The translations under genes were made by a program, and so were the position numbers. A DNA stretch of 64,000 nt, taken from Gluconacetobacter sacchari. GTDB taxonomy: Bacteria > Pseudomonadota > Alphaproteobacteria > Acetobacterales > Acetobacteraceae. Under the pieces are notes generated by a model. The model was not told where the DNA came from, made no database searches, and saw only the letters and a program-made list of their open reading frames with translations. Shown in pieces: positions 51,653 to 62,060 of this stretch. Position 1 is the stretch's first letter. Every line of letters starts with the position of its first letter. The stretch lies in NCBI RefSeq assembly GCF_014174255.1, contig NZ_JABEQJ010000001.1:248001-312000 (forward strand), read 5' to 3'.

Positions 51653-51972
51653 CGCCAACCCGCCTTCCCATCCGCGCACGATATAACGGCGCTGGAAGGA
51701 CGAGGGACACAAGTTTCCCGCGACCCGCCTGGCGTCGGGCGGGTCGAAAGGTGTTTTGCACTGGGCGTACGCACCTCCTGCCTATTCCCCGTGGCGAACG
51801 GCCGAGGCCGTTCACCTCAGGACCATAGGTCCGGGTGTTCTATTTGGCAGGCCACCCGACAGAGGAGGCCGCCCAGTTGCAAAAGCGCTTCGACACGCCG
51901 ATGTGAACGATAGCATATGAGCCGGCCCCATGCCAGCGCCGGGACGGAGGCGGGCATGGGCGGGGCCGGTCG
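51653..51972. other. Intergenic region with two hairpins
   Basis: No gene is seen in these 320 bases. Two clean inverted repeats lie here: CGACCCGCC/GGCGGGTCG at 51721-51746 and GAACGGCC/GGCCGTTC at 51796-51813. One may end the MocR-like transcript coming from the right, and the other may form part of the promoter region of the small gene/nepR pair. I looked for an EcfG-type promoter (GGAAC-N16/17-CGTT) toward nepR and found no good match. Confidence 0.4.
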
Positions 51973-53439
51973 TCACAGACCGGCCAGCAGGGCGAAGACC
52001 CTGTCGATTTCCCCGTCATCGACCTCGCCATAGCCGTGCGAGATGATGCGCCCGCTTATCAGCGACTTTCTTCCCGACTCCGGAACGAGGGGGTAGCGTC
52101 CCGGAACGTAGATGCCGGCCTGGGCGCCGCGCGCGACGAAGGTGGCGGTATCGGGCCAGCGGGACGGGAGGAGCCAGCTCATTCTCGGCGCCTTACCGAT
52201 ACCGACATGCGTCACCTCCCCCAGGTGACGGCGCTGCGCGTCGAGCACCGCCTGCCGGCGGCGCATCATCACCGTGCGCGTGCGGCGCAGGATCTGATCC
52301 AGTTCGCCCGTGTCGATGAGGCGGGCGAGGGCTTCCTGCTCCAGCCATGGGAGGCCGTTATCCATGAGGAGCTTCGTTTCGAGCACCGCCTGCAATTCCG
52401 CCCACGGCACGACGAGATAGCCGAGCATGACGCCGCCGCCGAGCGTCGGCGCGAAGAGTCCGGCATGGATGACGCCCTGGCCGCCGGCGAGCGCGAGCAG
52501 GGACGGCAAATCGTCATCGAGACTGAGCAGGTCGTACATCGATTCCTCGACCAGGAGCGCCCCCGCCGCCCGCGCGGCCGCCAGAAGCTGGCGCCTGCGC
52601 GCCAGAGGCAGCGTCACGCCCAGCGGGACGTGACAGCCCGGATTGACCACCGCGAGCCCCACGCCCTCGAACGCCGCGTCGTGCAGGCTGATCCCGTGCT
52701 CGTCGACGGGTACCGGGCGGATGCCCGCGCCGCATGCCTCGTACAGCCGGCGCTTGCCGACATAGCACGGATCTTCCAGCATGACGGCCCGGTCGTGCCG
52801 CGACAGGGCGCGCGCAATGATCGAATGCGCCTGCTGGAGGCCGGCGACGACGATCACCTGCCGGGCATCGACCGGCAGGCCATGCCGGGCGGTCAGCCAG
52901 CGGGCCAGCATGTCCCGCAGGAAGGGAAGGCCGGCATTGGGCTGGAACTGCCCACCCCCCTTCCAGCCGTCATGGACCAGAAGGCGCTGGACGACCCGGC
53001 GCCATTCGCGCGCGCGATAGAGCGGCACGTTGGACCCGAAGCCGAGGCTGAGCGCCACCGACTGCGACGAGCCGTGCCGCCTGTCATCGACGAAGGCCTG
53101 GTCGAACAATGAATCGGCCGGGCGCGGGCGCAGGCTTTCCCCGGCTTCGAGCCCCGCGGAGGGGGTCGCGATCGCCCGCCGGGCGCCGGGCGGCATGCGA
53201 TGGACGAACGTGCCGCTGGAAGACCGGGGCTCGATATAGCCTTCCGCCCCCAGGCGCTCGTAGGCCAGCACCACGGTGTTGCGCGACACGCGCCAGCGAG
53301 CGGCGCTTTCCCGCACGCTGAGGAGCCTCTGCCCCGGACGCAGGGCGCCCGCCACGATGGCCGCGATGAACTGGCGGACGATCTGTTCCTGCAAATTGTC
53401 GTCCGCCCCCCGGTCCAGGGACGGAAGGAAGGGTGTCAT
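51973..53439 (-). CDS. MocR-like (GntR-HTH/aminotransferase) regulator lacking the PLP lysine
   Basis: A 488-residue protein. The GntR HTH lies at about 10-80 (LRPGQRLLSVRESAARWRVS, NTVVLAYERLGAEGYIEPRS) and a class I aminotransferase fold spans 130-488. The family has SFSKTL at the PLP lysine; here residues 327-343 read GLFAPTLGGGVMLGYLV, with Pro331 in place of Lys. The usual DDYDSE loop is also altered (LVEESMYDLLS, 296-306). It is probably an effector-binding regulator without covalent PLP. It is divergent from the TonB operon across a 138-base AT-rich gap and is the likely regulator of it. Confidence 0.85.
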   Translation of the reverse strand: MTPFLPSLDRGADDNLQEQIVRQFIAAIVAGALRPGQRLLSVRESAARWRVSRNTVVLAYERLGAEGYIEPRSSSGTFVHRMPPGARRAIATPSAGLEAGESLRPRPADSLFDQAFVDDRRHGSSQSVALSLGFGSNVPLYRAREWRRVVQRLLVHDGWKGGGQFQPNAGLPFLRDMLARWLTARHGLPVDARQVIVVAGLQQAHSIIARALSRHDRAVMLEDPCYVGKRRLYEACGAGIRPVPVDEHGISLHDAAFEGVGLAVVNPGCHVPLGVTLPLARRRQLLAAARAAGALLVEESMYDLLSLDDDLPSLLALAGGQGVIHAGLFAPTLGGGVMLGYLVVPWAELQAVLETKLLMDNGLPWLEQEALARLIDTGELDQILRRTRTVMMRRRQAVLDAQRRHLGEVTHVGIGKAPRMSWLLPSRWPDTATFVARGAQAGIYVPGRYPLVPESGRKSLISGRIISHGYGEVDDGEIDRVFALLAGL

Positions 53440-53577
53440 GGCGCCGCCTCGTGCTTATTCACTATTTTATTAAGTTATATCTGTACCCATGTCAAATTTA
53501 ATCACCGTCACTATGATGTCTTTGGGGCACCGACTACACTTAGTTTTGTTGTGGTTTATGTTAAAAGGCATATACAG

Positions 53578-55971
53578 GTGTCCAATACCGTACGGCACAT
53601 CGATCCCGCGTTGCAGAACCGGACGCGCCGCCTTGTTTCCGCCGGCCGTTCCGGCCTGGGTCGGCATGGCGTGATGATGCCCTGCGCGCGTGTGCTGGCA
53701 TGTGGTACGGTGCTGGTCGGCCTGTCCCGCCCTGTTGCCCAGGCGGAGACGCCCGCCCGGAAGGCCGCGCCGGCGGGGCAGGATTCACACCCAGGCGGTG
53801 TGGAAACCGTCATGGTGACGGCGAACCGGCGGTCGCAGGATATCCAGAAGGTCGCGGGCACCGTCACCGCCGTCAGCGCACGGACCATCGCTCGCCTGCA
53901 CCTGGACAGCGCCGCCGATGTCGCCGCGCTGGCGCCCAACGCGCTGGGCTATAATTTCGACGGGCGGTTGCGCCCGCGCTATTATATTCGCGGGGTCGGC
54001 AATGGAAATCAGGCGAACAACGCGGTGGGCGCGGTCGCGGTCTATGCGGACGACGTCTATCTGAACAGCCTCGCCTTCCAGGGTTTTCCGCTTTTCGACC
54101 AGGCGCAGGTGGCGGTGCTGAACGGCCCGCAGGGGACGCTGTGGGGCAAGAACGCGACGGCCGGGGCGATCCAGTTCACGTCGCGACGCCCGGACTTCGC
54201 CCGGAGCGGGTATGCCCAGGTCGATTTCGGCAATTACGGGCAGAAGCGCGGCGAACTGGTCTTCAACACGCCCGTGGTGAAGGACAGGCTGGCCGTTCGT
54301 CTTTCGGTCCGCGACGAGAACCAGGATGGCTGGGCGCATAATCTGTACAGCGGCAAGCGCGTGGGGACGTTCGGCGATTTCGCCACCCGCTTCCAGGCGC
54401 TGTGGAAACCCACCGACGCGCTGGAATTTCTGCTGAACCTGCATGTGCGCGACATGCAGGGCACGAACGTGCCCTATTACAGCGCCGGCGGCACGTCGGT
54501 CTATTCACCGCTGGCCATCGGCAGCCGGGACCATACGAACACCAACGTCAACGGGCGGCAGGCGTTGGTATCCGAGGGGGTGTCGCTTCATACCGTCTGG
54601 CATCCGGGCCATGGGCTGACCTTCACTGCGATCACGTCGTTCGACACTGCCCAGCGGCGGGTTTCGGGCGACGGGGACTATACGCCGGCCGAATACAGCC
54701 GGTCGTACGACAAGTTGCACCCGACTCAGGTGAGCCAGGAGTTCCGCCTGGCGTCCGACGCGCGGCGGCGCGTTTCCTGGATCGCGGGGGCCTATTATTT
54801 CCATGAAAACCTGAACGACCGCTACGCCACGGCGACATTGCCGCCCGGTGCCGCCACCACGCCCGCGATCATCGGCCAGCCGGCATGGGCGGGCACGCAT
54901 TATACCCAGACGACCGACAGTTTCGCGCTGTTCGGCAATACCACCATCCATGTGGTGAAGTGGTTCCAGATCGCGGGCGGGGTGCGGTGGACGCATGACC
55001 ACCTGCATCTGGACCTCGACAGCCGGCAGGCGCTGTATCCGGTCTCGTTCGCCGCCAATCCGGCGGACTGGTGGAATGCCGCCCGCGTCGGCAGCGGGAT
55101 TGCGACGATCGACGCCTATCATGGGGGGCGGAACTGGTCGAATGTCAGTTTCGACGTCGAGCCGCAATTCCTGATCGGCGACCACCAGATGCTCTATGCG
55201 CGGATCGCGGACGGGTATCGGTCGGGCATCTTCAATACCCAGGTCACGCCCAATCCGGTCAAGCGCGGCGGGGCGCCGTTACAGAAGGCCGCGCCAGTCA
55301 GTCCGGAAACCCTTATTTCCTACGAGGGTGGATACAAAGGGAGCTGGTTCGGCCGTCGCCTGACGCTGAGTGCCGACGGATTCTATTCGCAATACGACAA
55401 TATCCAGACCTCGTGGACCGCGACCGACGCGGCGACGAAGGCGACCGTGCTGGCGCTGACGAACGCGGCGTCCGGCAGGTCCTATGGCGGGGAGTTCTCG
55501 TTCCAGGCGCGGCCGGTCGCGGATCTGACCCTGTCAGGCAATGTCGGCGTGCTGCGAACGGCATTCACGCGCTTTGCGGCGCCCGCCGGCACCACGGGGG
55601 CGGCCAACCTGACGGGGAACGCGTTTGCCCGGGCGCCGCGCCAGACAGCCAATATCGCGGCGGACTGGGATTTCCGCACCCCCATCGGCACTGGCTCGGT
55701 CGGCACGCGGTGGAACTATACCGGCCATTATTACTACCTGGTGTCCAACGAAACGGCCTCGGCGCTCCAGCAGCGGGCGGTGTGGCTGGGGGATGTCCAT
55801 GCCTCGTTCCGTCCCGGCAACAGCCGGTGGGAAATCAGCGGCATCATCAACAACGTCGCAGGCGCGCGCTACCTGGTGCAGGTGCTGCCGTACTCGGCCA
55901 CGTCGCAGACCTTCACCTACCAGTACGGCGCGGCGCGGATGTTCCTGCTCTCCGCCCGTGCCGATTTCTGA
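53578..55971 (+). CDS. TonB-dependent outer-membrane receptor
   Basis: A 797-residue receptor. It has an N-terminal signal (ARVLACGTVLVGLSRPVAQA), then a TonB-box/plug domain (VETVMVTANRRSQDIQKVAG, YYIRGVGNGNQANNAVGAVA, LNGPQGTLWGKNATAGAIQF). A 22-strand-type barrel ends YGAARMFLLSARADF. The type is the iron-complex-like OM receptor group that in many bacteria imports aromatic or plant compounds. GTG 53578 has AAAAGG 9 bases upstream; ATG 53674 or 53677 would shorten the signal. It is first of a five-gene plus-strand run. Confidence 0.9.
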   Translation: MSNTVRHIDPALQNRTRRLVSAGRSGLGRHGVMMPCARVLACGTVLVGLSRPVAQAETPARKAAPAGQDSHPGGVETVMVTANRRSQDIQKVAGTVTAVSARTIARLHLDSAADVAALAPNALGYNFDGRLRPRYYIRGVGNGNQANNAVGAVAVYADDVYLNSLAFQGFPLFDQAQVAVLNGPQGTLWGKNATAGAIQFTSRRPDFARSGYAQVDFGNYGQKRGELVFNTPVVKDRLAVRLSVRDENQDGWAHNLYSGKRVGTFGDFATRFQALWKPTDALEFLLNLHVRDMQGTNVPYYSAGGTSVYSPLAIGSRDHTNTNVNGRQALVSEGVSLHTVWHPGHGLTFTAITSFDTAQRRVSGDGDYTPAEYSRSYDKLHPTQVSQEFRLASDARRRVSWIAGAYYFHENLNDRYATATLPPGAATTPAIIGQPAWAGTHYTQTTDSFALFGNTTIHVVKWFQIAGGVRWTHDHLHLDLDSRQALYPVSFAANPADWWNAARVGSGIATIDAYHGGRNWSNVSFDVEPQFLIGDHQMLYARIADGYRSGIFNTQVTPNPVKRGGAPLQKAAPVSPETLISYEGGYKGSWFGRRLTLSADGFYSQYDNIQTSWTATDAATKATVLALTNAASGRSYGGEFSFQARPVADLTLSGNVGVLRTAFTRFAAPAGTTGAANLTGNAFARAPRQTANIAADWDFRTPIGTGSVGTRWNYTGHYYYLVSNETASALQQRAVWLGDVHASFRPGNSRWEISGIINNVAGARYLVQVLPYSATSQTFTYQYGAARMFLLSARADF

Positions 55972-55980
55972 GAGGTTTCC

Positions 55981-57057
55981 ATGAGCAGCACACACCCTGT
56001 CATCGACCTGCATGCCCACTGGTTTCCGCCCTCGACCCTGGAAATCCTGGGCCGACGGACCGAGGCGCCACGCATCGGCGCGCGGGACGGCGGGCTGGCC
56101 ATCTGGCGCGCCGGGGCCGGGGCGGGGACCGGCGGGGCCTTTCCACTGGGGCCGCAATGGCATGATATCGACCGGCGCCTGGCGCATCTGGACCAGGCCG
56201 GGATCGTGCATCAGCTCCTGTCCTGGCCGACGACGCTGGGGGTGGATGCCGCCCTGCCCGCCGACGCCACGCGCGACCTGTGGTCGGCATGGAACGACGA
56301 TACGGCGGCGCTGATCCGGCGCCACCCGGACCGTTTCAGCGCGGTGGCGGCCCTGAGCACCAGCGATATCGGCTGGTCGGTGCGCGAACTGGAGCGCGCG
56401 CATGGCACGCTGGGGCTGATCGGCGGGGTGCTGCCGGTCAACGGCTTCTTTTCCCGTGCCTCGGCCGAACAGTTCCGCCCGCTGCTGGAAGCGGCGCAGG
56501 CGCATCGCAGCCATCTTTATCTGCACACGGGTTTTGCCAACCCGGCTATTACCGGGCAGCCGCCCGATATCCTCCATGGCGACAATGACGGCATCCGCTG
56601 GGTGATCGATAACGGGTTTCATTTCGCCTCGGCGGTGGCAACCCTGGCCTTTACCGATTTTCTCGATCCCTTCCCCGATGTCGCGATCCAGATCGCGATG
56701 CTGGGCGGATCGGCGCTGGGGGCGCTGGCGGCCGAGCAGGCGGAGGTGTCGCCGCGCATCGCGATCGGCCCGCTGCGCCGGCATTTCCGACAGATCTGGC
56801 TGGATACCGGGGCGGCGGGAAGCGGCACCGCCGCCGTGGCCGCCGCGATCCGCGTGCTGGGCGCGGAGCGGATCGTCTTCGGCTCGGACTATGCGCCGCT
56901 GGCCGATGCCGTGCCGACGCTGGAGCGGGTGTGCGCGGCCACCGCGACCGACCCGGACAGCCAGGACGCCGTGCTGTTCGGCAATGCCCGCGCGCTGCTG
57001 GCGCGACATGGGCACCTGCCCGCATCCCTTTCCTGGCTCAAGGAGCACATATCATGA
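55981..57057 (+). CDS. Amidohydrolase-2 (ACMSD-like) family hydrolase/decarboxylase
   Basis: A 358-residue TIM-barrel protein. It has the metal-binding HxH in VIDLHAHWFPP at the start, a His in SHLYLHTGFANP and the C-terminal FGSDYAPL with the catalytic Asp. ACMSD-like enzymes decarboxylate or hydrate aromatic-pathway acids; LigJ and resorcylate decarboxylase are examples. It begins 9 bases after the TonB receptor gene and overlaps the next start by 4 bases (ATGA). Exact reaction unknown. Confidence 0.88.
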   Translation: MSSTHPVIDLHAHWFPPSTLEILGRRTEAPRIGARDGGLAIWRAGAGAGTGGAFPLGPQWHDIDRRLAHLDQAGIVHQLLSWPTTLGVDAALPADATRDLWSAWNDDTAALIRRHPDRFSAVAALSTSDIGWSVRELERAHGTLGLIGGVLPVNGFFSRASAEQFRPLLEAAQAHRSHLYLHTGFANPAITGQPPDILHGDNDGIRWVIDNGFHFASAVATLAFTDFLDPFPDVAIQIAMLGGSALGALAAEQAEVSPRIAIGPLRRHFRQIWLDTGAAGSGTAAVAAAIRVLGAERIVFGSDYAPLADAVPTLERVCAATATDPDSQDAVLFGNARALLARHGHLPASLSWLKEHIS

Positions 57058-58088
57058 CCGTGCCTGTCATTTCCTATACCCGTTGCCCGTCCGTGCCGAC
57101 CGTCAGCGCAATCGCCCATGCGCGCGGGCTGCTGGAAGAGGAGTTCCGCGACGAACGCGACGTGCGGTTCGTCTTCAAATCGGTCGGGTTTTCGCCGCAG
57201 ATCGTCTACGGCCATGACGAGCGCTTCTGGATCCGCAATGCGGGCCATGCGCCGGCGGTGTGGAAGCGCAGCCAGGGCGTGGACTGCAAGGTCGTCGGGC
57301 TGGCGTTTCTCGACGGGCGTTATCCGGTCCTGTCGCTGAACCGCTCGGGGATCGACCGGGTGGAAGGGCTGCGGGGGCGCAGGCTGGCGGTGTTCCATAA
57401 TCCCGACAGCCCGTTCGACCTGATGGTGGCCCAGCAGCTCAAGATCTATCGCGTCGCGCTGCAACAGGCGGGGCTGACGCTGGAGGATGTGGAACTGGTC
57501 TATGTCCCGCGCCGGTTCAGCCCGGGCGCGGCCAAGGGGGGCTTTCTGCGCTTTGCGTTCCAGACGGCGCTGGAGGCGCTGGAAAGCGGCGCGGTGGATG
57601 CGGTGACGGCCTCGATCCCGCCCGATGGCGGGCTCTATCCGCTTCTGAACGTGCTGTACGATACCCGCCTGGCGCCCGACCTGACCGCGCGGGTGCATCC
57701 GTCGGTGCTGCGCGGGCTGGTGGTGAGCACACCGCTGCTGGAAGAGCGGCGGGACCTGGTGGTGCGCGTGGTCGCGCGGCTGATCGAGGCCTCGGACTGG
57801 GCGGCGTCGGCGCCGATTGCGGCCGTACGGGCGCTGTCCGCCGATTTGCACCAGGAGCCGGAGAGCCTGACGGCGGTGTACGAGAACATTCCGCAGGGCA
57901 TTCGCCTGTCGCTGGACGATGCCTATGTCGAGACGCTGGCGGTGCAGAAGGCGTTTCTGCGCGAACAGGGGCTCATCGAGCGGGATTTCGACCTTGAAGG
58001 CTGGCTCGACCGGGGCCTCCTGGCCGAAGCGGCGGCGCTGCATCGCGCGCGCCATGCCGTGACCCAGCCCGTCGGCGCGGGGGCGTAG
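57054..58088 (+). CDS. DszB-like desulfinase / substrate-binding-fold protein
   Basis: A 344-residue protein of the NitT/TauT substrate-binding fold. It has no signal peptide and no ABC permease or ATPase nearby, which argues against a transport role. The N-terminus ISYTRCPSVPTVSAIAHARG resembles LTYSNCPVPNALL of DszB (2'-hydroxybiphenyl-2-sulfinate desulfinase), keeping its nucleophile Cys (Cys11 here, Cys27 in DszB). FWIRNAGHAPAVW (from 58) aligns with YTRFGGEIPPLL and keeps the active-site Arg (Arg61). The DszB His60 is not kept at its place; His54 is close. Enzyme activity is inferred. Confidence 0.65.
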   Translation: MTVPVISYTRCPSVPTVSAIAHARGLLEEEFRDERDVRFVFKSVGFSPQIVYGHDERFWIRNAGHAPAVWKRSQGVDCKVVGLAFLDGRYPVLSLNRSGIDRVEGLRGRRLAVFHNPDSPFDLMVAQQLKIYRVALQQAGLTLEDVELVYVPRRFSPGAAKGGFLRFAFQTALEALESGAVDAVTASIPPDGGLYPLLNVLYDTRLAPDLTARVHPSVLRGLVVSTPLLEERRDLVVRVVARLIEASDWAASAPIAAVRALSADLHQEPESLTAVYENIPQGIRLSLDDAYVETLAVQKAFLREQGLIERDFDLEGWLDRGLLAEAAALHRARHAVTQPVGAGA

Positions 58089-58092
58089 GCCG

Positions 58093-59376
58093 ATGTCCGC
58101 CACGCATGCGCTGTCCCCGCCCGTCGGGGATGGGTCTTTTGCGACACCGGCCGATGCCGCCCGGGCCTCGCGCACGCGCGCTGTCGTCGTGATGCTGGCG
58201 ACCGGGACGGCCTGTGCGATGGAGGGCATGATCCTGTCCGGCCTGCTGACCCCGATGAAGGCGGATCTGCGGCTCTCCGACACGGCGTTTGGCAGCGTCA
58301 TGGCGGTCTCGACCCTGGCGGGCATTGTCGGCGCACCGCTTTTCGCCCTGCTGACGGGGCGTTTCGGGCGCAAGGCCGTGCTGGTCGGCACCGTGATCCT
58401 GTGGAGCGTCGCCTCGGCCGGCAGCGCGCTGGCGGCGGGGCTGGCGACGCTCGTCTTCTGGCGGGCGCTGACCAGTTTCGGCATCGCCGCCTATCAGGGC
58501 ATCGCGCCCGGCTGGCTTGCCGACCTCTATGACCGCAAGGCCCGCAACCTGGTGTTCGCGCTTTTCATGGCGCGCAACAAGCTGGGTTCGGCCCTGGCCT
58601 TCGGTTTCGGGGGATGGATCGCCGCGCGGTATGGATGGCACCAGGCCTTTCTGCTGACCGGGCTGCCGGGATTGCTGCTGGCGCTGTTCCTGTTCCATCT
58701 GCCCGAGCCACGCCCGGGCCAGGCGGACGGGCGGCCGATCGACGCGCCGCGCGACGCGTCGTGGAAACGGCAGGTCGCGGTGCTGCGCATCGGGCCGTAT
58801 GTCACGCATCTTCTGGCTCTCAGCCTGTTTTTTTCCGGCATGATGACGGCGCAGATGTGGCTGCCGCCCTTTCTGCACCGCGTGCATGGGCTGGACAATC
58901 TGCATGCGACCCGTTTCCTTTCCGCCACCCTGCTGCTTACCATGCCGGCGGGGCCGCTGGGCGGATGGCTGACGGGGCGATACCTGGCGCGCCGCGCCTG
59001 GGGCCTGCCGGCCAGCCTGGCCGCGACGACGCTGATCGCGGCGGTGCTGTTCACCGTGTCCTTCACCACCGGCAGCCTGCGCGTCAGCGAAATCGCGGCG
59101 CTGGGCGCCATCGTCGCCTTCGGCTCCACGGCCGGCAGCCTGACCACGCTGCTGATCGAGACGGTGCCCGCGACGCTGCGGACGATCTCGGGCTCGTTCG
59201 GCGCCATGGCGTCCACCGCCGTTTCCGGCTTTTTCGCGCCCTGGCTGCTGGGTGCCCTGTCGGACCAGTACGGCCTGGCGCGCGCCATCCTGATCGGGCC
59301 GCTGTTCTATGCCTGCGCCGGCCTGCTGTGGATCGGCCTCGCCCTCCGCCCCGCCGGTCGCAAGACCTCCGCCTGA
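58093..59376 (+). CDS. MFS transporter of the catabolic cluster
   Basis: A 427-residue protein with 12 predicted membrane helices. It has motif A (LLTGRFGRKAVLVGTVILWS), YQGIAPGWLADLYDRKARNL in the helix 4-5 loop, and a central loop with PEPRPGQADGRP. It resembles anion or Spinster-type symporters of the MFS. It starts 5 bases after the DszB-like gene, so it should carry the cluster substrate across the inner membrane after TonB-dependent entry. Confidence 0.88.
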   Translation: MSATHALSPPVGDGSFATPADAARASRTRAVVVMLATGTACAMEGMILSGLLTPMKADLRLSDTAFGSVMAVSTLAGIVGAPLFALLTGRFGRKAVLVGTVILWSVASAGSALAAGLATLVFWRALTSFGIAAYQGIAPGWLADLYDRKARNLVFALFMARNKLGSALAFGFGGWIAARYGWHQAFLLTGLPGLLLALFLFHLPEPRPGQADGRPIDAPRDASWKRQVAVLRIGPYVTHLLALSLFFSGMMTAQMWLPPFLHRVHGLDNLHATRFLSATLLLTMPAGPLGGWLTGRYLARRAWGLPASLAATTLIAAVLFTVSFTTGSLRVSEIAALGAIVAFGSTAGSLTTLLIETVPATLRTISGSFGAMASTAVSGFFAPWLLGALSDQYGLARAILIGPLFYACAGLLWIGLALRPAGRKTSA

Positions 59377-59403
59377 CCGTATTTTCCCTGGGATATGCCA
59401 ACC

Positions 59404-60663
59404 ATGAATCAGATTGCCTCGCCCCGTCCTGCCGCGTCGCATGCCCTGTGGGAACAGACACGCCCGCGCGCGCATGCCCCCTACCCCGCCGACTGGATCG
59501 GGAAAGCACGGGAACTGGCGGCCCTTTTCGCGGAAGGCACGGTCGATCGCGACCATGACGGCACGCGGCCGCTGGACCAGATCCGCCAGTTGCGGGAAAG
59601 CGGGCTGGTCAACCTGCTCTATCCCGCGTCGCTGGGCGGCGGGGGCGGCACGCTGCGCGATGCGGCGCACGCCGTGCTGGAAATCGCGAAAACCGATGGC
59701 TCCACCGCGGCATTGCTGGGGTTCCACTTCTATAATTCCCTCGTGCCGCTGCTGACGGATTACGCGGATCGCAACGCGGCGGTGGTGCGGCGCTCGACCG
59801 GGGAGCGATGGCTGTGGGGCAATGTGACCCAGTATGTGAACCGCGCGTTCGTGGCGCGGCATCATCCGGACGGGGGCTTCGTGCTCAGCGGCACCAAGCG
59901 CTGGAATACCGGGGCGCCGCTGGCCGAAATCACCACCGTGCTGGCGATTCACCCGGACCAGGACCGCTATCTCTACGCCGCCATACCGACCAGCCGCGCC
60001 GGGCTGCGCTTTCACGACGACTGGGCGCCGATCGGCCTGCGCGGCACGGATTCGAGCACGATCACCTTCGAGGATGTCAGGATCTTTCCCGACGAGGTGC
60101 TGCACTGGTCGCACGGGCCGGCGCAGACCGGGCCGCTGCCGCTCTGGGCCAGTTTCGGCGCCATCTTCTATTCCGCCGTCTATGTGGGGCGCACGCTGGG
60201 GGCGCTGGAACTGGCCCGCGACTGGACCTTGCAGGGCAAGCGCCAGGGGACGTTTCCCGGCTCCGACCTGTCGGCGGACGATCCGTTCATCCAGGCGGAA
60301 TTCGCCGAATACTGGATCGCGGCGCAGGCCGCGCTTGCCTATCTGGACGGCACGATCGCCCGGGTGCAGCAGGCATGGGATGACCGCGCCCGGTTGACCG
60401 AGGCGGATCGCGGGCGCATCGCGCTGGACACGCTGGCGCTGCGCACGTTCACCTCGCGCACCGCCCTGCATGTCACGCCCCGGATCTTCGAATTCGCCGG
60501 CGGGCGGGGTACGGGCTTCGCGGCCGATTTCGACCGGTTCTGGCGCGATGTCCGCACCCTGTCGTCGCACGACCCGGAAGTGCTGGCGCGGCGGACGATC
60601 GGGCGGCATGTGCTGCATGACAGCCCGCTCTTCTTTCCGCCGCATTTCAAGCCGGAAGGCTGA
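59404..60663 (+). CDS. DszC/SfnB-like acyl-CoA-dehydrogenase-fold flavin monooxygenase
   Basis: A 419-residue protein with the acyl-CoA dehydrogenase fold. The flavin region includes LWGNVTQYVNRAF and FVLSGTKRWNTGAPLAEI. The C-terminus has IFEFAGGRGTGFAADFDRFW and RDVRTLSSHDP, the pattern of the DszC/SfnB monooxygenases that oxidise organosulfur compounds with FMNH2 from a separate reductase. The catalytic Glu of true acyl-CoA dehydrogenases is not seen in its usual context. No flavin reductase gene is in the cluster. ATG 59395 is an alternative start. It is the last gene of the run. Confidence 0.82.
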   Translation: MNQIASPRPAASHALWEQTRPRAHAPYPADWIGKARELAALFAEGTVDRDHDGTRPLDQIRQLRESGLVNLLYPASLGGGGGTLRDAAHAVLEIAKTDGSTAALLGFHFYNSLVPLLTDYADRNAAVVRRSTGERWLWGNVTQYVNRAFVARHHPDGGFVLSGTKRWNTGAPLAEITTVLAIHPDQDRYLYAAIPTSRAGLRFHDDWAPIGLRGTDSSTITFEDVRIFPDEVLHWSHGPAQTGPLPLWASFGAIFYSAVYVGRTLGALELARDWTLQGKRQGTFPGSDLSADDPFIQAEFAEYWIAAQAALAYLDGTIARVQQAWDDRARLTEADRGRIALDTLALRTFTSRTALHVTPRIFEFAGGRGTGFAADFDRFWRDVRTLSSHDPEVLARRTIGRHVLHDSPLFFPPHFKPEG

Positions 60664-61876
60664 GAGCGCGGATCGGGCCGGGGGCGGCCCGATCCGCCGG
60701 GCATGCGGCTTGCGGTGACAGGCGGCCGGTCCGCGACAGCAGGACCAGCGCCACGCCCAGCAGGCAGATCCCCAGTCCGGCGGCGGAGACCATCGGGTAG
60801 CCGAAGCCGAGCGACAGGACCGCCCCGCCCAGGGCCGCGCCCAGGGCGTTGCCCAGGTTGAACGCGCCGATATTGACCGACGAGGCCAGGCCCGGCGCGT
60901 CGTGCGCGGCCTGCATCGTCCGCATCTGCAAGGCCGGCATCAGGGAGAAACTGGCGGCCCCCCACAGCAGGACGCCCACCAGCGCGCCGGCCGGCGTCCG
61001 CGCCGCGAAGGGAAAGGCCAGCATGATCAGGCCGAGGATCGGGAAGAAGACCAGCAGCGTGCCGACCAGCGAGCGGTCCGCCGCGCGGCCGCCGATGGCG
61101 TTGCCGATGGAGAAGCCGACGCCGATCAGCATCAGCGCCGCCGTCGTCAGCGCCGGGCCCGCCTGGGTGATATGCTCCAGCATCGGCACGATATAGGTAT
61201 AAAGCTCGAACATCGCCCCGGCGCCGATCACCGTGACGCCCAGCGCCATCAGCACGTTGGGCCGCAGGATGGCTTTCAGTTCGGCCGCCGCGTCGGGCCT
61301 GGGGCCGGCTTCGGCCAGGGGCAGGGCGACGGCGAGGGCGGCCGCCGCGATCACCCCCAGTGCCGAAATGGTGGCGAAGGCGCTGCGCCAGCCCAGCGTG
61401 TCGCCCAGCCAGGTGGCCGCCGGCACGCCGAAGATGTTGGCGACGGTCAGCCCCATGAACATGCCGGCCACCGCGCTGGCCCGCCGGTTGGGGGCCACCA
61501 GGCTGGCCGCCTCCACCGCGCCCAGCCCGAAGAACGCGCCGTGGGCCATGCTGGTGAGGACCCGCGACAGCAGCAACTGCATGTAGTCGCTACTGGCCGC
61601 CGAGGTCAGGTTGCCGACCGCATAGAGGATCATCAGCCCGATCAGCGCGTATTTGCGCGGGTAGCGTGCCAGCAGCAGGGTGACGAAGGGCGCCCCGCCC
61701 ATCACGCCGAACGCATAGGCGCTGATGAGGCTGCCGGCCTTGGGCACGCTGACATGGACCCCGTCGGCCAGGACGGGCAGCAGCCCCATGGGGGTAAATT
61801 CGGTCACCCCGATCGCGAACGCCCCGCAGGCCAGCGACAGCAGCGCGAGAGGGGACGAAGATTCGGCTTTCGACAA
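60647..61876 (-). CDS. MFS transporter, DHA1/AraJ-like exporter
   Basis: A 409-residue protein with 12 helices. It opens LACGAFAIGVTEFTPMGLLP, the DHA1 efflux signature (helix 1 with VTEF), then SLISAYAFGVMGGAPFVTLL. AraJ/YdhP-type exporters remove sugars, arabinose derivatives or drugs. The TTG at 61876 has AAGAGG 5 bases before it and fits the family N-terminus; ATG 61936 is the alternative. The 3' end overlaps that of the convergent monooxygenase gene by 17 bases. Confidence 0.88.
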   Translation of the reverse strand: MSKAESSSPLALLSLACGAFAIGVTEFTPMGLLPVLADGVHVSVPKAGSLISAYAFGVMGGAPFVTLLLARYPRKYALIGLMILYAVGNLTSAASSDYMQLLLSRVLTSMAHGAFFGLGAVEAASLVAPNRRASAVAGMFMGLTVANIFGVPAATWLGDTLGWRSAFATISALGVIAAAALAVALPLAEAGPRPDAAAELKAILRPNVLMALGVTVIGAGAMFELYTYIVPMLEHITQAGPALTTAALMLIGVGFSIGNAIGGRAADRSLVGTLLVFFPILGLIMLAFPFAARTPAGALVGVLLWGAASFSLMPALQMRTMQAAHDAPGLASSVNIGAFNLGNALGAALGGAVLSLGFGYPMVSAAGLGICLLGVALVLLSRTGRLSPQAACPADRAAPGPIRALSLPA

Positions 61877-62060
61877 AACGACCTCTTTTCCTTTTTCCGG
61901 ACCGCCCGTGCGGTTGCCGGCCCGATGCGCGCCCATGTTAAGTCAGGGCAGTCGATAACGATACCGGCAAGGCGATCGGGATTTGATCGCAAGGTCCGGA
62001 GTGCGGGACACCGTTGACGTGCATAGGGTCGCGAACATCGCAACGAACCGGGGCAGGACA

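Follow-up and report, generated by a model that had tools for sequence, protein, structure and literature searches.

A mobile six-gene block of Gluconacetobacter sacchari that probably takes up an organosulfur compound and frees its sulfur

A conserved block in three acetic acid bacteria

We analyzed a 64,000-nucleotide stretch of Gluconacetobacter sacchari DNA (assembly GCF_014174255.1, contig NZ_JABEQJ010000001.1, positions 248,001 to 312,000 of the forward strand; hereafter the window) and found that six of its genes, at 51973-60663, form a mobile module that moves horizontally among acetic acid bacteria. The best explanation, to which we give a probability of roughly 0.6, is that this module takes up an organosulfur compound and frees its sulfur, and we favor sulfur scavenging over carbon catabolism as its role. 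An earlier note made from the DNA letters had drawn attention to five plus-strand genes with gaps or overlaps of at most 27 bases, starting at 53440. The five genes are indeed spaced in this way, across 53674-60663; position 53440 is the base following the start codon of a divergent MocR-type regulator gene, and no gene starts there. The regulator is a member of the unit, because it travels with the block in the two other carriers described below. The features are as follows.

51973-53439, minus strand: MocR-type regulator (GntR DNA-binding plus aminotransferase-like domain; Pfam GntR and Aminotran_1_2)
53440-53673, no strand: promoter region common to the MocR gene and the operon, between the divergent genes
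53674-55971, plus strand: TonB-dependent outer-membrane receptor (plug 39.4 and barrel 91.8 bits, both above cut-offs)
55981-57057, plus strand: metal-dependent enzyme of the Amidohydro_2 (ACMSD/LigW) superfamily (PF04909)
57054-58088, plus strand: DszB-family protein (family profiles, tree, hhalign, active-site alignment)
58093-59376, plus strand: major facilitator superfamily (MFS) transporter (PF07690, 136 bits)
59404-60663, plus strand: DszC-type monooxygenase dependent on reduced flavin mononucleotide (FMNH2), with the acyl-CoA dehydrogenase fold (match to solved DszC, tree clade)

The receptor start was placed at the ATG at 53674, which gives a signal-peptide-like N-terminus, with 53578 as the alternative; the DszC-like gene starts at 59404 or 59395. 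Along the operon, the first and second genes are therefore 9 bases apart, the second and third overlap by 4, the third and fourth are separated by 4 bases, and the fourth and fifth by 27 (or 18). With a GC content of 0.679, the module differs little from the window DNA ahead of it (0.667).

All six genes are found in the same order, with different flanks, in the window, in Gluconacetobacter aggeris LMG 27801 and in Brytella acorum LMG 32668. The proteins are 85-94% identical to their module orthologs in G. aggeris and 57-78% identical in B. acorum, and the ratio of nonsynonymous to synonymous substitution rates (dN/dS) lies between 0.10 and 0.25 across all six genes, indicating purifying selection, with synonymous changes relative to B. 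acorum being near saturation. A scan of genome contigs built on an alignment of the two orthologs located two loci, those of G. aggeris and B. acorum; it used two peptide patterns only, so more may exist. Within the genus, two of 14 genomes carry the DszB-like gene, the window's own included. Among 200 genomes of the family, three have a DszB-like match at 1e-20, again counting the window's own; the other two matches are in B. acorum (73%) and, as a distant form, in genome G027. The recurrence of the gene order in two other genomes, together with the dN/dS values, places the block beyond chance. That its members are mere neighbors with no single pathway between them is scarcely credible, given an order kept over two genera with different flanks, genes that nearly touch or overlap, and purifying selection.

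Comparison with a 21-kb stretch of G. aggeris revealed 89% DNA identity over 8.7 kb, spanning only 51972-60652 of the window; the flanks examined beyond this alignment (4.9 and 7.4 kb) are dissimilar. At the site corresponding to that of the module in the window, the flanks enclosing 10.0 kb in the window stand about 560 bases apart in G. aggeris, whose own copy of the module is adjoined by a serine recombinase gene and an integrase-domain piece. We conclude that the module is mobile because DNA similarity to G. aggeris ends at the module ends and because G. aggeris lacks the module at the window's site. The 10.0-kb stretch also carries a second MFS gene (60647-61936), with a close copy elsewhere in G. 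aggeris. This gene was considered as a further module member and dropped: the G. aggeris stretch contains no DNA homologous to it, and close copies occur elsewhere in the genus.

The DszB-like protein

Standard searches revealed little about the protein encoded at 57054-58088. Pfam gave no match at 0.001, the NCBIfam SsuA-family model TIGR01728 scored 60.1 bits, below its cut-off of 163.5, and phmmer with the single protein against the PDB returned chance matches only, so profiles were required. A profile of 23 family members that contained no DszB matched solved DszB (2de2) over its length with an E value of 1e-42, and SsuA with 2.6e-7. When a profile was built from just the three module proteins, its top match was DszB, at a weak E=0.0033, and hhalign gave 95% for DszB versus 20% for an SsuA-type protein. 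In a 38-row tree, DszB and the DszB-like proteins are split from SsuA with support of 97/97; the module trio forms one clade, whose nearest neighbor is not settled. On the strength of profile, tree and hhalign together we rejected an SsuA-type identity, and the grouping with DszB, apart from the binding proteins, is the outcome on which the earlier note had made its organosulfur idea depend.

The active-site residues of DszB are given in part of PMC12168087 as Cys27, His60, Arg70 and Gly73, with the sulfinate held by His60 and Arg70 and reacting with Cys27. Cys11 and Arg61, which the note had singled out as catalytic and active-site residues, are present and align with Cys27 and Arg70, and Gly64 is the equivalent of Gly73; all three are kept in the module trio. 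Across 32 rows that include the module, the equivalents of Arg70 and Gly73 are kept in all 32, those of Cys27 and Gly72 in 29 each, and that of His60 in 27. Near-duplicates were retained in this set (e.g. L036/L038/L030, L024/L025 and L031/L032); the fragment L033, a second copy of the gene common to L027 and L028, and L023 (same genome as L046) were left out. A separate DszB alignment omitted Cys-to-Ser paralogs, near-duplicates and one fragment. The model predicted from three input sequences (window, G. aggeris and B. acorum) is poor, with a predicted local distance difference test (pLDDT) score of 36.1.

We considered whether the DszB-like protein might instead bind or carry a ligand without being an enzyme. 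In favor of this are the weak SsuA match noted above, the public annotation of relatives as 'ABC transporter substrate-binding protein', and the absence of the cysteine in three of the 32 rows. The cysteine is nevertheless kept in all three module proteins, and the kinship is with DszB. The earlier reading that the protein lacks a signal peptide and an ABC partner also agrees with our results: judged by hydropathy alone, without a dedicated signal-peptide program, its N-terminus is not signal-peptide-like, and Pfam and NCBIfam scans of the six genes found no ABC gene. The protein is probably cytosolic, and we regard a carrier function as very improbable.

Among the relatives, three DszB-like paralogs (L031:5316-6368, L032:7855-8910 and L040:9216-10292) lie near cysteine-bearing copies and have serine in place of the catalytic cysteine; they are possibly inactive partners or binding proteins. 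Another DszB-like protein, L063:20953-22005, keeps the cysteine, has Asp at the His60 position, and is annotated merely as 'monooxygenase'.

The DszC-like protein, the amidohydrolase and the MFS protein

The protein of the last gene contains the RDVRT..HDP pattern attributed to it and is 34% identical to annotated DszC. Its matches include solved DszC (E 7e-57) and methanesulfinate monooxygenase (7e-49). In a tree of 20 rows, from which row L036b was left out as too short, it falls in a clade of nine rows with DszC, with support of 100/99. The same clade holds a Pseudomonas aeruginosa plasmid protein labelled MsuC by its msuE and ssuD neighbors. The histidine of the HDP motif, which we read as the equivalent of DszC His391, is kept; a role for His391 is described in part of PMC11134501. 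A second histidine, three residues ahead of His391 in DszC, is Leu in the window protein and Gln in the MsuC-labelled row. Judged by alignment and tree, the DszC-like protein groups with DszC.

The amidohydrolase matches PF04909 with 59.7 bits against a cut-off of 26.4. Aligned to LigW and relatives, it keeps the HxH motif (H11, H13), H182 and D303, which we take to be metal ligands. The HxG-block histidine of LigW, to which we likewise ascribe, as an assumption, a role in ACMSD/LigW-type decarboxylases, corresponds to M240 in the window and is missing in all seven aligned rows (the window, two orthologs, an Acinetobacter protein, L025, L036 and L038). Because this histidine is absent, a plain ACMSD-type decarboxylase identity appears doubtful. 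The model predicted from the same three genomes is poor (pLDDT 50.4). The closest plasmid relative of the amidohydrolase, at 40% identity, is encoded on an Acinetobacter plasmid (L062:11983-13047), where its neighbors are a TonB receptor annotated for siderophore transport, an ABC transporter, exbBD-tonB and a DOPA 4,5-dioxygenase-like gene.

Models that match the MFS protein below their cut-offs include those of anion and aromatic-acid symporters, and by family it is probably an inner-membrane importer of the compound taken up by the receptor. The idea that it is the same transporter as the MFS proteins beside other DszB-like genes was unsupported, with no match at 1e-5 in L031, L032 or L040.

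The receptor and related loci

Relatives of the DszB-like protein at about 30% identity are rare in the genomes sampled: at 1e-15, four of 385 genomes of the class and seven of 398 of the phylum have matches, the window's own included in both counts. The loci in which such genes lie are largely of two kinds. The first, found on Sinorhizobium/Rhizobium plasmids and in G027, a genome of the window's family, has luciferase-like enzymes, DszC-like genes and ABC transporters, in some cases with an amidohydrolase. In the second (L026, L027, L031, L032, L040 and L063), a TonB receptor occurs together with SsuD-type enzymes and an SsuA-type match, and four of the six also show a sigma-54 activator match. 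Four further loci (L029, L039, L064 and L065) fit neither kind cleanly.

The window receptor was searched for in 11 genomes, five of which lie outside the family and have both receptor matches and DszB-like genes. In four of these five, the best receptor match adjoins DszB-like genes, with scores for the match beside DszB-like genes and for the other of 416 and 161 bits in G927, 401 and 155 in G627, 400 and 161 in G631, and 261 and 216 in G372; G631 and G627 share one genus. In the fifth, G522, the receptor beside DszB-like genes ranked second and is split into two pieces. There is no receptor match in G027, G670 or G802, which have DszB-like genes. Among the best 20 of 283 plasmid receptor records, the top three (329, 322 and 310 bits, the next being 213) all adjoin DszB-like genes. 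A 16-row receptor tree, from which two rows shorter than 500 residues were left out, joined the module receptor, six cluster receptors and two more from organosulfur surroundings with support of 100/100, apart from five others.

These results bear on the possibility that the module acquires metal, its receptor importing a metallophore-like compound that the enzymes degrade in the cell. TonB receptors serve mainly for metal uptake, and the Acinetobacter relative of the amidohydrolase adjoins a siderophore-annotated receptor, exbBD-tonB and an ABC transporter. The strongest receptor matches outside the module, however, belong to organosulfur loci, and Pfam and NCBIfam recognized no siderophore-interacting protein or ferric reductase in the six genes. 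We therefore consider metal or chelator acquisition improbable.

For the DszC-like protein, the best match lies near DszB-like genes in three of eight other genomes (G027, G670 and G802). On plasmids, its best ten rows each lie 18-20 kb from a DszB-like match, but these rows come exclusively from rhizobia and are therefore not independent. The module therefore appears to be a hybrid that combines both kinds of locus. The earlier note described the pairing of DszB-like and DszC-like proteins with a TonB receptor and an ACMSD-like amidohydrolase as a pathway unfamiliar to its author. A qualification is needed, since DszB-like genes are joined by DszC-like and amidohydrolase genes on rhizobial plasmids and in G027, and by this type of TonB receptor with SsuD-type enzymes on Burkholderia and Sphingobium plasmids and in several other genomes; both combinations meet in the module.

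Sulfur genes elsewhere in the carriers

A dense organosulfur island lies at C3:376-414 kb of G. aggeris (L072-L075). It holds seven of the 13 luciferase-like genes of that genome, a flavin reductase, TauD-, SsuB- and SfnB-like genes (all three under their NCBIfam cut-offs), NMT1-type binding proteins and TonB receptors. The G. aggeris module, at C3:427.8-436.5 kb, is 13.9 kb from this island, an association that is a single case. The window genome has seven luciferase-like matches over the cut-off, all elsewhere than in the module, and at C43:17.9-22.2 kb a DszC-like gene, two luciferase-like genes and a flavin reductase are grouped. Flavin reductases and NIR_SIR proteins are present in all three carriers. 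Sulfite reduction in the carriers is likely and can be put no higher, since PF01077 spans nitrite and sulfite reductases alike.

Evidence for and against organosulfur use

Several observations weigh against the proposal that the module takes up an organosulfur compound and frees its sulfur. At the level of the DszB-like protein, the His60 equivalent is replaced by V51 in the window and by A and K in the two orthologs, and the Gly72 equivalent is Ala in the module trio (RNAG), alone among the 32 rows. No branch on the DszB side of the tree is longer than the stem of the module trio (2.14), so the function may have changed. The loss of His60 is not unique to the module, since it is also gone in two of the 29 other rows (L063_20953, in which the cysteine is kept, and L040_9216, in which it is lost). 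Because the Cys, Arg and Gly73 equivalents are kept but His60 and Gly72 are altered, the alignment places the window protein in the DszB family without thereby making it a proven DszB. The earlier suggestion of an organosulfur substrate is accordingly borne out in the kinship with DszB over binding proteins and in the alignment of Cys11, Arg61 and Gly64 with DszB active-site residues, and is weakened by the missing His60.

Further points of this kind come from the other genes and from their surroundings. The DszC-like protein scores 226.8 bits against the NCBIfam equivalog model of DszC (cut-off 850) and 156.4 against that of SfnB (cut-off 430.9), below the threshold in both cases. Its best match lies away from DszB-like genes in G927, G627, G631 and G372, and G522 has no match. 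No DszB- or DszC-like match was found within the 25 kb examined near the Acinetobacter amidohydrolase. Of the five receptors placed apart from the module's group in the tree, two (o_L072 and o_L075) come from within the G. aggeris island or its border, so the kind of receptor only partly follows membership of the island. Finally, 51973-60663 contains no gene for a DszA-type luciferase-like monooxygenase, the module has neither ABC nor flavin reductase genes, and no luciferase-like match lies on C1 or C8, the module-bearing contigs of the window genome and of B. acorum, respectively.

The same facts give some room to a sulfur-free carbon compound as the substrate, with Cys11 of the DszB-like protein performing another cleavage (e.g. 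decarboxylation or deacylation) and the DszC-like enzyme hydroxylating carbon or nitrogen. The loss of His60 and Gly72 and the long stem would fit such a change. Some matches with the acyl-CoA dehydrogenase fold bear names that refer to chemistry on carbon or nitrogen (3-HSA hydroxylase, nitrososynthase), and the amidohydrolase superfamily includes aromatic-acid decarboxylases. One DszB-family profile weakly matches 4,5-dihydroxyphthalate decarboxylase (E 0.0084), a match not listed for the 23-member profile. On the other hand, the DszC-like protein matches DszC and methanesulfinate monooxygenase far better and groups with DszC, the kin of the receptor and of the DszB-like protein sit in organosulfur loci, and G. 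aggeris has its island. We consider a carbon substrate unlikely, and retain an organosulfur compound as the probable one; an aryl sulfone, in line with the compound class guessed in the note, would be one possible substrate.

Proposed mechanism

We infer the reactions, the class of substrate and the role of the regulator from the gene families and their genomic links. For an organosulfur compound, the TonB receptor would carry a molecule too large or too rare for porins through the outer membrane, and the MFS protein would move it through the inner membrane. The DszC-like enzyme, supplied with FMNH2 by a flavin reductase encoded elsewhere in the genome, would oxidize the sulfur or, in the manner of methanesulfinate monooxygenase, a sulfinate. 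The DszB-like protein would then cleave the C-S bond of a sulfinate, with Cys11 as the nucleophile and Arg61 and Gly64 holding the oxygens, and the sulfite set free would be assimilated. The amidohydrolase might open or trim the carbon part, and the MocR protein would presumably switch the operon. The step performed by DszA in the 4S pathway could fall to a chromosomal luciferase-like enzyme or to the amidohydrolase, or the substrate could already be a sulfinate.

His65, beside Gly64, is invariant in the module trio, and relatives have Asn, Ser or Glu there; that it could replace His60 is a guess. It enters a more specific and rather speculative DszA-free route. Here the DszC-like enzyme would make an oxidized cyclic or ester-like sulfur intermediate, which the amidohydrolase would hydrolyze instead of a second flavin enzyme; a rebuilt DszB, with His60 lost and the new invariant His65 beside the catalytic Gly64, would release sulfite, and the TonB receptor would be dedicated to a bulky natural organosulfur compound.

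Comparison with known systems

The dszABC genes of the 4S pathway (plasmid pMyong1, L041) resemble the module in having DszB- and DszC-family proteins in one cluster, and the equivalents of Cys27, Arg70, Gly73 and His391 are kept in the module. The module differs in being without DszA and in adding the receptor, the MFS protein, the amidohydrolase and the MocR regulator. Its DszB-like protein is 22% identical to P0006 and lacks His60 and Gly72, and the identity of the DszC-like protein is the 34% given above.

Gordonia is Gram-positive, so the host of the bdsABC operon has no TonB receptor. In Gordonia terrae C-6, bdsABC serves benzothiophene desulfurization, and the operon in E. coli cell extracts converted benzothiophene to o-hydroxystyrene (PMC3868597, in part). 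By analogy, it offers an experimental precedent for a low-homology desulfinase acting with DszC-type and DszA-type enzymes. It likewise comprises a desulfinase (DszB analogue) and an FMNH2-dependent monooxygenase (DszC analogue) of low dsz homology, a likeness of described function (PMC3868597). An organosulfur source induces it, along with other genes that include those for ABC transporters. Unlike the module, it has its own alkanesulfonate-monooxygenase-type gene (DszA analogue), and the portion of PMC3868597 consulted names no amidohydrolase.

The Sinorhizobium/Rhizobium plasmid loci (L036-L038 and L042) share DszB-like and DszC-like genes with the module, and the amidohydrolases of L036 and L038 are likewise without the HxG histidine. 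In these loci, ABC transporters replace the receptor and the MFS protein, luciferase-like monooxygenases are present, and the DszB-like proteins keep His60. Burkholderia L040, Sphingobium L063, L026, L027, L031 and L032 have the same kind of receptor adjoining DszB-like genes. They differ in having SsuD-type enzymes with an SsuA-type match in six of six and two or three DszB-like copies each, and no DszC-like or amidohydrolase match. Among the open-licence PMC papers searched, no title or opening of an abstract retrieved names the module, and no paper was found that pairs dszB, dszC or desulfinase with TonB. Set beside dsz- and bds-like loci, the parts are of known kinds and their combination is new.

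Gram-negative DszB-family genes labelled as ABC transporter substrate-binding proteins adjoin flavin monooxygenases and, in some cases, TonB receptors. If these genes encode desulfinases, some environmental use of organosulfur compounds is hidden by that label, and TonB receptors would acquire a class of sulfur ligands. If sulfur is not involved, the module would show a desulfinase fold recruited for another job. The module is tractable for finding the substrate, because it is small and movable and has one regulator and few known carriers.

The regulatory region and a downstream element

The MocR protein scored 240 bits against NCBIfam PdxR, below the cut-off of 320. A three-way DNA alignment of the promoter region (53440-53673) contains an 8-bp block, GTACCCAT, that is identical across the three genomes and is a candidate MocR operator. 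Just beyond the 3' end of the MocR gene lies a structured element of about 190 bases (51715-51904). Similar copies are numerous in the window genome and its genus, and the element folds with a z of -3.96 as single-stranded DNA. Within it, the minus strand of 51726-51860 gave a below-threshold match to sRNA-Xcc1 (32.5 of 53 bits, E 0.0036).

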